A stretch of 64,000 nt of DNA from Pontibacter aydingkolensis (GTDB lineage: Bacteria; Bacteroidota; Bacteroidia; Cytophagales; Hymenobacteraceae): the NCBI RefSeq assembly GCF_019443125.1, contig NZ_JAHYXK010000003.1, forward strand, positions 62,001 to 126,000, read 5' to 3'. The position numbers were made by a program, and so were the translations under genes. Below are positions 22,963 to 25,403 of this stretch, one piece after another (within the stretch, counting starts at the first letter, position 1; the number at the start of each line of letters is the position of its first letter). Under the pieces are notes generated by a model. The model did not search any database and was not told the DNA's origin. It was given only the letters and a program-made list of their open reading frames with translations.

Positions 22963-23868
22963 TTAGCGTTTTAGCAAAACTTCGTATTTACCATTGTTGG
23001 TGGGGTCTGTTTGGGAGAGTAATGTGAAGGCCTGCTGTTTTTGTGCAGGTGTAGCATTTTTGAACATATTTACAAGTTCATCGGCCTTGGCATCAAAGAA
23101 AGAACGGACAACTGCAGAGTTTGGCTTTTGCTGTTGCAGGCGCTGCACACTTTCCAGAACCGTAATTACCGACTGGCGTGCCTTCTCCGGGTTTTCCACC
23201 ATAATATCTAGCCCCTGCCGGTGCATGTTATAAAGTCCTTCGCGGTAAGGCAAGAACTGCGGGTCCTGCATGTTGTCGATCAGCCAATAGCGGTTGCGGT
23301 TGCTGTCGAAAGCTTTCCAGCCTTGGTAACCAGGCCCTTGCGAGGCAGCCAGGTTAACTATGCCCCTTGCTTTATCAAAGGCAGCTGCTCCACCCAAACG
23401 GCCAAAGCTGTCGTTATCTATGCCTATGATCATGTAAGCATAAAATGCCAGCATCGAAGAAAGGTTGGAAGTATAACTGTTCTCTGCAAAGTCAAGTGGT
23501 TGGGCGGTATTAAACTGGAAGGTCCAGTCTTTGTCGATAAAAGAGAAGAGCGTGGATTCATAGCCTGTGCCATAAGCTGGTCTCACAGAAACTACCTGCA
23601 CATTTGCTCTAAACACCCCGATTTCCGGCATCTCCGTCAGGTTTATCAATAGGCGGCATTTAATTCGTTCGTCTGGTCTGTAAGCCTGGTCGGTCCAGCG
23701 GCGGTTGTTCATGAACTCGAAAATGCGCGTTTGCATGTCTGTAAACAACTGCTTGTCTGTGTACTGTACCTGCTCGCTGTTAACCACAACATCACACTGC
23801 AGCTCCTGGGCATTGGCTGTCCAAGCTGTCAGGCAAAACATCAGCATAACAAGTATCTTCTTAACCAT
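22963..23868 (-). CDS. porD: PorD/DUF4835 family protein, T9SS-associated
   Basis: The 301-residue protein has a Sec signal peptide (ILVMLMFCLTAWTANAQ) and begins its mature part with ELQCDVVVNSEQVQ, the usual start of the DUF4835 family. PorD proteins are linked to the type IX secretion system in Bacteroidota and are thought to be periplasmic or outer-membrane associated. The two T9SS cargo proteins at 7496-11901 support an active T9SS in this organism. The start overlaps the coaB end by 8 bp, showing tight co-transcription with coaC-coaB. The symbol follows the family name; direct function is not shown here. Confidence 0.82.
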   Translation of the reverse strand: MVKKILVMLMFCLTAWTANAQELQCDVVVNSEQVQYTDKQLFTDMQTRIFEFMNNRRWTDQAYRPDERIKCRLLINLTEMPEIGVFRANVQVVSVRPAYGTGYESTLFSFIDKDWTFQFNTAQPLDFAENSYTSNLSSMLAFYAYMIIGIDNDSFGRLGGAAAFDKARGIVNLAASQGPGYQGWKAFDSNRNRYWLIDNMQDPQFLPYREGLYNMHRQGLDIMVENPEKARQSVITVLESVQRLQQQKPNSAVVRSFFDAKADELVNMFKNATPAQKQQAFTLLSQTDPTNNGKYEVLLKR

Positions 23869-24553
23869 GTGTTCGTTCCCAGATCAGGTTTACAATATCT
23901 TCGGCTACCTCCGTTTTCTGCTTAAGCTCAAAAGCGGTGGTAGCGTCTTTTTCAATAATTGTTACTTTATTTGTGTCGTGCTTAAAGCCAGCCCCCGGAT
24001 CATTCAGCGAGTTCAGCACGATCATGTCCAGATTCTTTTTCTGCAGCTTTTCGCGGGCATTTGCACTTTCGTTGTGCGTTTCCAGGGCAAAGCCTACCGA
24101 AAACTGGCCTTCTTTTTTCTCTTTGCCGAGGGCCGCTGCTATATCAACGTTCTTAACCAGTTCTATCGTCAGTTCGTCGCCGCTTTTTTTGATTTTTTTA
24201 TCAGCAACCATTTTAGGTCTGTAGTCGGCCACAGCTGCTGCATATACTATAATATCAGCCTTTGGCGCCAGCTGCTTTACAGCGGCATACATTTCGTCGG
24301 CAGTAGTAACCGGGGTAATATTTATACTTTGGCTTTCTGCCTTAATATTTACAGGGCCAGAAACCAACTGCACCTTAGCTCCGCGTGCTGCAAAGCACTC
24401 GGCTAATGCGTAACCCATTTTACCCGTAGAGTGGTTCCCGATAAAGCGCACCGGATCGATAGGCTCGTGGGTTGGGCCAGCTGTAAGAAGTATAGTTTTG
24501 TCTTTAAACGAGTTTTCGGTCACCTGCAAAATATTTCTGAAGTACCTGAACAA
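23861..24553 (-). CDS. coaB: Phosphopantothenate--cysteine ligase half of CoaBC (frameshifted)
   Basis: The ORF holds a complete CoaB domain: KTILLTAGPTHEPIDPVRFI, GNHSTGKMGYALAE, VYAAAVADYRPK and the lysine-rich KKIKKS region. It joins cysteine to phosphopantothenate in coenzyme A synthesis. In Bacteroidota CoaB is normally fused behind CoaC in one protein. Here it is in the +1 frame relative to coaC and overlaps it by 50 bp. Its only starts are a TTG at 24553 or a GTG near 24526, both inside the coaC end. One base less at about 24515-24535 would fuse the frames. It could be a sequencing error, a true split or recoding; see findings. Confidence 0.85.
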   Translation of the reverse strand: MFRYFRNILQVTENSFKDKTILLTAGPTHEPIDPVRFIGNHSTGKMGYALAECFAARGAKVQLVSGPVNIKAESQSINITPVTTADEMYAAVKQLAPKADIIVYAAAVADYRPKMVADKKIKKSGDELTIELVKNVDIAAALGKEKKEGQFSVGFALETHNESANAREKLQKKNLDMIVLNSLNDPGAGFKHDTNKVTIIEKDATTAFELKQKTEVAEDIVNLIWERTHG

Positions 24554-25064
24554 TCTCTTCCGGCTCTGCCATGCGCCCCTGCCCTATTAAGCCGCTTGCC
24601 AACTCGCCGTAACCAGCCTCTATTATATGGTTGCCGTAGCCGCGTAACTTTGTAAAGTTATTTTGTACCGATGGGTGCTGGTACATGTCCAGGTCCATGG
24701 CAGGAGCTACAAAAACAGGGCAGCGTGCCGAAAGATAAGTAGCTGTTAGTAGATTGTCGCAGAAGCCATTAGCCATTTTAGCCACAGTGTTGGCACTTGC
24801 CGGGGCTATTACCATCGCATCGCCCCATAGGCCAAGGTCTACGTGGTTATTCCACGTGCCGGTTTCGTCTTTCACAAATTGGGTGAGCACCGGCCTTTTA
24901 GAAAGTGTGGCTAAGGTTAGGGGGGTAATAAACTCAGAAGCAGAAGTGGTCAGGATAACCTGCACTTCTGCTTCTGCTTTTATGAGTTCACGAACCAGTA
25001 AGGCCGCTTTGTACGCAGCTATACTTCCGCAAACTCCTAATATGATCTTTTTATGCCGGAGCAT
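24504..25064 (-). CDS. coaC: Phosphopantothenoylcysteine decarboxylase half of CoaBC (frameshifted)
   Basis: The 187-residue ORF is the flavin-dependent CoaC domain: KIILGVCGSIAAYKAA (FMN binding), the active-site His in NNHVDLG, APASANTVAKMANG, and APAMDLDMYQHP with the PxMNxxMW-type segment. It decarboxylates phosphopantothenoylcysteine in coenzyme A synthesis. The frame runs off the domain into GDRKLV and stops, where the normal protein would go on into CoaB. It starts 9 bp after rpoZ, in the conserved operon. The two halves together look complete, so function is probably kept if both are made. Confidence 0.87.
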   Translation of the reverse strand: MLRHKKIILGVCGSIAAYKAALLVRELIKAEAEVQVILTTSASEFITPLTLATLSKRPVLTQFVKDETGTWNNHVDLGLWGDAMVIAPASANTVAKMANGFCDNLLTATYLSARCPVFVAPAMDLDMYQHPSVQNNFTKLRGYGNHIIEAGYGELASGLIGQGRMAEPEEIVQVLQKYFAGDRKLV

Positions 25065-25073
25065 TTGCCCGTA

Positions 25074-25403
25074 TTACAGGGAAATTTCCTCTGAAGTTTC
25101 CTCGTCTGGTGTACGGAAGTATACTTTTCCTTCCAGGAACTCCTCGATAGCAAGACTGGTAGGCTTTGGTAAACGCTCGTAGTATTTAGAGATCTCGATC
25201 TGCTCGCGGTTCTCGAATACTTCCTCCAGGTTATCTACGGTTGTTGCAAATTCAGCCAGTTTAGAGTTCAACTCTTCCTTTATCTTAACTGCAACCTGGT
25301 TCGCTCTTTTAGAAATAATAGACACAGACATGTAAACGTTACCGGTTTGCTCTGCAAAGTCGGCCATGTTGCGCGTAACGATTGTTGATGGAACTGATGC
25401 CAT
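25074..25403 (-). CDS. rpoZ: DNA-directed RNA polymerase subunit omega (Bacteroidota type)
   Basis: The 109-residue protein has the short form of omega/Rpb6 found in Bacteroidota: an N-terminal VTRNMADFAEQTGNVYMSV segment, then IISKRANQVAVKIKEELN with the conserved R-A-x-Q-x-A-x-K helix. It helps assembly and stability of RNA polymerase through the beta' subunit. The position between bamD (11 bp upstream) and coaC (9 bp downstream) is the usual one in this phylum and supports the call. The palindrome AAGTATACTT at 25117 falls within its codons for Lys-Val-Tyr-Phe. Confidence 0.9.
   Translation of the reverse strand: MASVPSTIVTRNMADFAEQTGNVYMSVSIISKRANQVAVKIKEELNSKLAEFATTVDNLEEVFENREQIEISKYYERLPKPTSLAIEEFLEGKVYFRTPDEETSEEISL

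Follow-up and report, generated by a model that had tools for sequence, protein, structure and literature searches.

Sequence comparison indicates that the split between coaC and coaB in Pontibacter is real, old and conserved. The locus lies in the window, the 64,000-nucleotide stretch of the Pontibacter aydingkolensis genome that was analysed, and its two halves are most likely ordinary CoaC and CoaB enzymes encoded by overlapping genes. coaBC is fused in most bacteria, and separate enzymes have been described for Streptococcus and Enterococcus (accessible part of PMC12570885). We consider it very probable that the split is a conserved one, with coaB started from a nearby NTG codon and translated in a coupled fashion.

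The coaC gene, for the phosphopantothenoylcysteine decarboxylase half, occupies positions 24504–25064 of the minus strand. It encodes 186 aa from an ATG start to a TAA stop, and its product matches TIGR00521 and PF02441. The protein ends in GDRKLV, with GTT TAA (24504–24509, minus strand) as the final sense codon and stop. The coaB gene, for the phosphopantothenate-cysteine ligase half, is read in the +1 frame relative to coaC, and its product matches TIGR00521 and PF04127. Between the last in-frame stop and CoaB there are only three start codons, considering ATG, GTG and TTG: TTG at 24553–24551, TTG at 24529–24527 and GTG at 24523–24521. The longest coaB ORF (24553–23861, 230 aa) begins with the first TTG. 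The GTG, on the minus strand five codons ahead of a conserved TTT, is the proposed start, and would give a protein of 220 aa encoded at 23861–24523 of the minus strand. The first-pass annotation had placed the frames +1 apart, called both halves complete and reported only TTG or GTG starts for CoaB inside the end of coaC, and all of this was borne out. The 50-bp overlap it gave is correct for the most distal TTG but not for the nearest start, the GTG, where coaC and coaB share 20 bp (24504–24523, minus strand).

Each half is full length. The CoaC half covers positions 2–183 of the bifunctional model TIGR00521 and the CoaB half covers 180–391. CoaC passes the curated cut-off for the flavoprotein domain PF02441 (127.1 versus 22.7 bits), and CoaB passes that for the DFP domain PF04127 (245.1 versus 22 bits), aligning with model positions 2–186 of 186. 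Solved relatives in the alignments include 6TGV and AtHAL3a for CoaC, and 5INT and 1U7U for CoaB. The CoaC segments APAMDLDMY and GELASGL seem to correspond to the PxMNxxMW motif and the catalytic Cys site of other CoaC proteins, with D and S here. The S of GELASGL is also present in fused relatives.

The same-strand gene order in the window is a 109-residue ORF, coaC, coaB and porD. The 109-aa ORF directly upstream of coaC (25074–25403, minus strand) was taken from the ORF list and has no NCBIfam match; it may be RNA polymerase omega-like, which is a guess. The downstream neighbour, porD (22963–23868, minus strand), was named as type IX secretion system protein PorD by NF052317, and its start overlaps the coaB stop by 8 nt (ATGGTTAA, 23861–23868, minus strand). 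The search of the window genome gave one PF04127 gene and no second DFP gene. In M. tuberculosis, depletion of CoaBC is bactericidal (available text of PMC7794376). On these two grounds the earlier assertion that both domains must be made probably holds.

Bifunctional CoaBC (TIGR00521; M. smegmatis 6TGV and E. coli) has the same two domains in the same order as the window, but in one frame. The window has two ORFs in frames +1 apart with a stop between them, each matching half of the model. CoaC residue 176 aligns to residue 175 of 6TGV, and residue 21 of the 230-aa CoaB ORF aligns to residue 193. A loop of residues 180–189 joins the domains of the M. smegmatis enzyme, according to PMC7794376, and the break in the window therefore falls at or beside this loop. 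The CoaB and CoaC of Streptococcus and Enterococcus (TIGR02114 and TIGR02113) are likewise encoded apart. The window halves, however, fall below the streptococcal cut-offs, scoring 161.1 versus 261.4 bits for TIGR02113 and 78 versus 217.2 bits for TIGR02114. They match the bifunctional model best, and outside the family the fused form is found in their nearest relatives, unlike the streptococcal type.

The closest named match of the window locus is P. cellulosilyticus (90% in CoaB). Across the genus coaB was found in the +1 frame of coaC in 49/50 genomes, in all of which coaC ends with GTT and then TAA, TAG or TGA; three of the 49 are listed as single-contig assemblies. Because 49/50 genomes share the frame change, a one-base sequencing error, which had been one of three options offered for this site, is rejected for the window. 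GDRKLV is indeed the C-terminus in the window, but calling it non-homologous does not stand, since a tail of the same length with a final V occurs in those 49 genomes. Gene decay, or an error of sequencing or assembly, would also have to account for two full-length halves that match their families and for the failure to find a second DFP gene in the window genome. Frame changes associated with homopolymers do occur in one P. mangrovi locus and one locus of another family (f35), and we regard either explanation for the window as having a negligible chance of being right.

P. mangrovi (L038; named locus L119, HB172049) is the sole exception among the 50 genomes of the genus. It has one extra T in a T-run, and coaC ends earlier at a TGA that overlaps the proposed coaB GTG start as GTGA, with loss of the putative in-frame shift site discussed below. 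The extra T may be a homopolymer error, or the overlap type may have switched naturally.

Comparing the same site in relatives, as had been suggested, extended the frame change beyond Pontibacter to the Adhaeribacter and Rufibacter loci that were read. L001, which duplicates L002, and L184, at a contig end, gave no usable pair of matches and were dropped; 189 loci remained, comprising 11 fused (10 distinct), 130 overlap-type and 48 other loci. Loci were called overlap-type when coaB was in the +1 frame and the coaC stop lay less than 25 nt from the CoaB motif. Collapsing the 130 by identical junction sequence left 75 distinct loci, 49 from Pontibacter, 10 from Adhaeribacter and 16 from the Rufibacter group. 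Adhaeribacter and Rufibacter (with Sabulibacter) have the same arrangement as Pontibacter, and P. mangrovi was the only locus read from these genera that fell outside the class. The coaC stop is exactly 16 nt ahead of the same CoaB motif in 75/75 distinct loci; the frame is true by construction of the class, while the exact distance is not. The stop probably recurs at this place because an F or L in CoaB that precedes K, N, S, E or D is encoded as YTT-RRN, which gives a stop in the coaC frame.

The search of the family covered 200 genomes, all with a match, and among the rows listed there was no coaB frame of fused length, the longest being 354 aa. Junctions were read from 51/150 genomes outside Pontibacter, plus named loci, many of them in the same genomes. 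In Hymenobacter coaC and coaB are separate genes, with an ATG three codons before the motif in 34/37 distinct rows and an ATGA overlap onto the coaC stop in 2 of the remaining 3. The CoaB motif of one Hymenobacter locus lies 525 nt past the coaC stop. Some Hymenobacter spacers between coaC and coaB (L074, L076, L081, L082, L157 and L168) carry a repeat-like motif, CATGCTGAGC. It is present in 8/48 non-overlap rows, a set that includes duplicates and the f16 and P. mangrovi rows, whereas 276 kb of overlap-type loci, searched on both strands, gave 8 matches. The split in Hymenobacter may have been widened by insertion of such repeats.

Outside the family, the order sample gave a coaB frame of fused length in 103/108 matching genomes. 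Of the other five, two from one family (f16) are split, with an ATGA overlap in one and an ATG 6 nt after the stop in the other, while the three others are incomplete or run into contig ends. Of the 138 genomes sampled, 20, mostly small ones, were without a match.

A quick tree was built from 124 distinct CoaC plus CoaB rows (75 overlap, 39 separate and 10 fused), with P. mangrovi (L038, L119) left out, SH-aLRT support without bootstrap, and a root placed by choice. The overlap rows form one clade (SH-aLRT 98), which joins the 37 Hymenobacter rows (SH-aLRT 96). The two f16 rows are placed elsewhere, and these and the fused rows are on long branches. Conservation of the arrangement, its clustering on the tree and the presence of start codons are all read directly from the sequences. 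The simplest history would be a single ancient fission at the base of Hymenobacteraceae. An ancestral fused coaBC would have split, most simply once, through a frame change in the inter-domain linker. Pontibacter, Adhaeribacter and Rufibacter would have kept the halves as overlapping genes, and Hymenobacter would have moved on to genes set apart by a spacer, with coaB starting at ATG.

Other lineages of Bacteroidia seem to have repeated the split. The class survey covered 149 genomes, 142 with a match, and ten loci with a short coaB frame were examined, with three of fused length for comparison. Loci at contig ends or partial (G397, G362, G444, G459 and G464) and weak second matches (G367 and G396) were left out as splits. 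ATGA or 8-nt overlaps were found in 6/10 short-frame loci. Four genomes of one family (f31) have the overlaps ATGA, ATGCCTGA, ATGAGTAA and TTGGCTGA, one genome of f38 has GTGTTTGA at the same place as Pontibacter, and one of f55 has ATGA. The f35 locus contains an A-run, and its frame change could be an error. In L302 (G433, f78) coaB is in the +2 frame, and its open frame holds no ATG, GTG or TTG ahead of the conserved motif. This junction may reflect an error, an unusual start or true recoding, and it counts against coupled initiation at an NTG. L306 and L307 (G375 and G469) are second coaB copies without an adjacent coaC match, in genomes that also carry a coaB frame of fused length.

Translation of CoaB would begin de novo at an NTG lying 1–6 codons ahead of the conserved F/L codon, most likely through ribosomes coming straight from the end of coaC (termination-reinitiation). 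An ATG, GTG or TTG in the coaB frame within 6 codons upstream of the F/L codon was found in 75/75 distinct loci. By synonymous resampling of the CoaC tail, a null that ignores relatedness among loci, a start is expected at a rate per locus of 0.41 in Pontibacter, 0.68 in Adhaeribacter and 0.39 in Rufibacter. The nearest start is at codon -5 in 26 loci, -4 in 22, -1 in 22, -6 in 2, -3 in 2 and -2 in 1. The tree implies at least 11 changes in its position, and every locus retains a start. In the 28 Pontibacter loci with an NTG at -5 the required T comes from GGT (23) or CGT (5). At codon -6 of Pontibacter coaC, GGT is used for 23/39 Gly residues, whereas its share of Gly codons across these genes is 18%; each of the 23 loci with GGT has the NTG at -5. 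An in-frame stop removes every upstream start in P. arcticus, R. immobilis and two Adhaeribacter loci. Within two codons after that stop there is an ATG in P. arcticus, a TTG in R. immobilis and a GTG in the two Adhaeribacter loci.

The Rufibacter group has TTG at -1 in 16/16 loci, and an 8-nt stop/start overlap is present in 22/75 loci, including all 16 of this group and P. arcticus. The coaB-porD junction has an 8-nt overlap in 48/49 Pontibacter and 10/10 Adhaeribacter loci; the 16 loci of the Rufibacter group gave none. Prokaryotic genes overlap most often by 4, 1 or 8 nt, with 8 nt third, and such overlaps are taken as signs of termination-reinitiation; a bound of ≤8 nt has been used as predictive of coupling (both from the available part of PMC10666635). 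The pairs studied here resemble known termination-reinitiation pairs in their stop/start overlap, seen in the 8-nt form in the 22 loci and at Pontibacter coaB-porD, and in a conserved start that lies near or overlaps the upstream stop, within 6 codons in every locus. They differ in 48/75 loci, where the nearest start, mostly GTG or TTG, gives a 17- or 20-nt overlap. Most Pontibacter loci are of this kind and exceed the ≤8-nt bound given in that part of PMC10666635, which counts against coupling. The best AGGAGG match ahead of the nearest coaB start is 4 of 6, which is not a good Shine-Dalgarno-like site.

Alternatively, coaB could be initiated independently inside coaC, uncoupled from coaC termination. 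The conserved start codons speak for this, and the Hymenobacter locus with 525 nt between coaC stop and motif implies that coaB can be started at a distance. It would leave aside that the position of the coaC stop is kept in 75/75 overlap-type loci though the tail varies, and that other lineages repeatedly show overlaps of 4 and 8 nt. We judge uncoupled initiation unlikely. A true split with coupled translation is the best supported of the three options first offered. Two separate proteins would be made, probably by coupled translation, and the two enzymes may re-assemble.

The third option, +1 recoding, is disfavoured. Here the ribosome would slip at GTT or GCT before the stop to make fused CoaBC, and free CoaC would be the termination product. 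The last codon and stop of coaC in the 75 loci read GTTTAA in 46, GTTTAG in 16, GCTTAA in 9 and GTTTGA in 4. The last codon is thus GTT (66) or GCT (9), the stop is TAA (55), TAG (16) or TGA (4), and the place is constant. These six bases, G-Y-T-T-R-R in 75/75 overlap-type loci, are the candidate shift site. The G three bases before the stop is invariant, with 0 changes inferred on the tree as against 12 to 32 (mean 22) at each of 19 downstream CoaB third positions. This is the strongest point for frameshifting; coupled initiation from a start at -4 or -5 does not account for a G before YTT, and this counts against it. The linker of the fused product would be about as long as in fused relatives, and among the tRNAs found in the draft window genome only tRNA-Val(UAC) could read GTT. 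The window genome also carries a +1 site in prfB, seen as AGGAGG-TAC-CTT-TGA-C at about 2540–2500 of the minus strand of L222, which looks classical.

The prfB site likewise changes frame by +1 at a stop codon. For coaC the best upstream AGGAGG match is at most 4 of 6 in 73/75 loci, as in most random coaC windows, the exceptions being two Pontibacter loci with a full AGGAGG (L029) and a 5-of-6 match (L030). The codon is GTT or GCT rather than CTT, all three stops are used, and start codons are kept. In three stretches the RNA folds showed no gain in stability over shuffled sequences (mean z +0.44, +0.57 and +0.69), and z was under -2 in 0, 3 and 0 of the 75 loci. Outside L029 and L030 neither an SD-like element nor an RNA structure was seen as a stimulator, whereas prfB has AGGAGG. 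Re-pairing from GTT to TTT or from GCT to CTT would be poorer than from CTT to TTT, and tRNA-Ala(GGC) is present in 18/18 genomes tested, including all 9 with GCT. If the ribosome shifted, the conserved coaB start codons would be superfluous. The in-frame site is lost in P. mangrovi, and the genes of Hymenobacter and other lineages cannot be joined by a +1 shift. Programmed frameshifting is accordingly rated as improbable. We give equally little credence to the related idea of a new type of +1 shift site in the invariant G-Y-U/stop, one that needs neither SD nor structure. It would yield fused CoaBC in addition to free CoaC throughout Pontibacter, Adhaeribacter and Rufibacter, perhaps next to initiation at the NTG codons.

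Other causes of the invariant G were considered. Near-cognate P-site decoding fails because the tRNA-Ala(GGC) of the window genome is found unchanged in 9/9 genomes with GCT and because five Adhaeribacter genomes have tRNA-Val(GAC), which is not among the tRNAs found in the draft assembly of the window genome. In an 8-nt overlap the G of the NTG is also the first base of the final codon of the upstream gene. A relic of such an overlap fits Rufibacter but not the retention of the G in Pontibacter, where the coaB-frame codon at this position is mostly TCG (41/75 loci overall). Selection for V or A at the end of CoaC may be responsible, but it would have to account for the complete absence of Ile, Leu, Phe, Thr and Ser.

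The GeneTack "translational coupling" clusters resemble the coaC-coaB junction in that a conserved frame transition is explained there by a co-located stop and start (accessible part of PMC3711429). The main text of that paper, as available, does not contain "pantothen" or "coaBC", and the Bacteroidota names tried are absent from the accessible part of PMC12421855. No paper on the coaBC split was found in the open literature, most subscription papers being outside the search.

The points of interest are the fission series and the invariant G; the enzymes appear ordinary. Annotators should be cautious and not mark such coaC and coaB genes as frameshifted. The family members read appear to have given up the fused coaBC, and the living genera would preserve the stages, fused, overlapping out of frame, and separate. 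Gene fission by frame change, and the appearance and movement of start codons, would thereby become directly observable.
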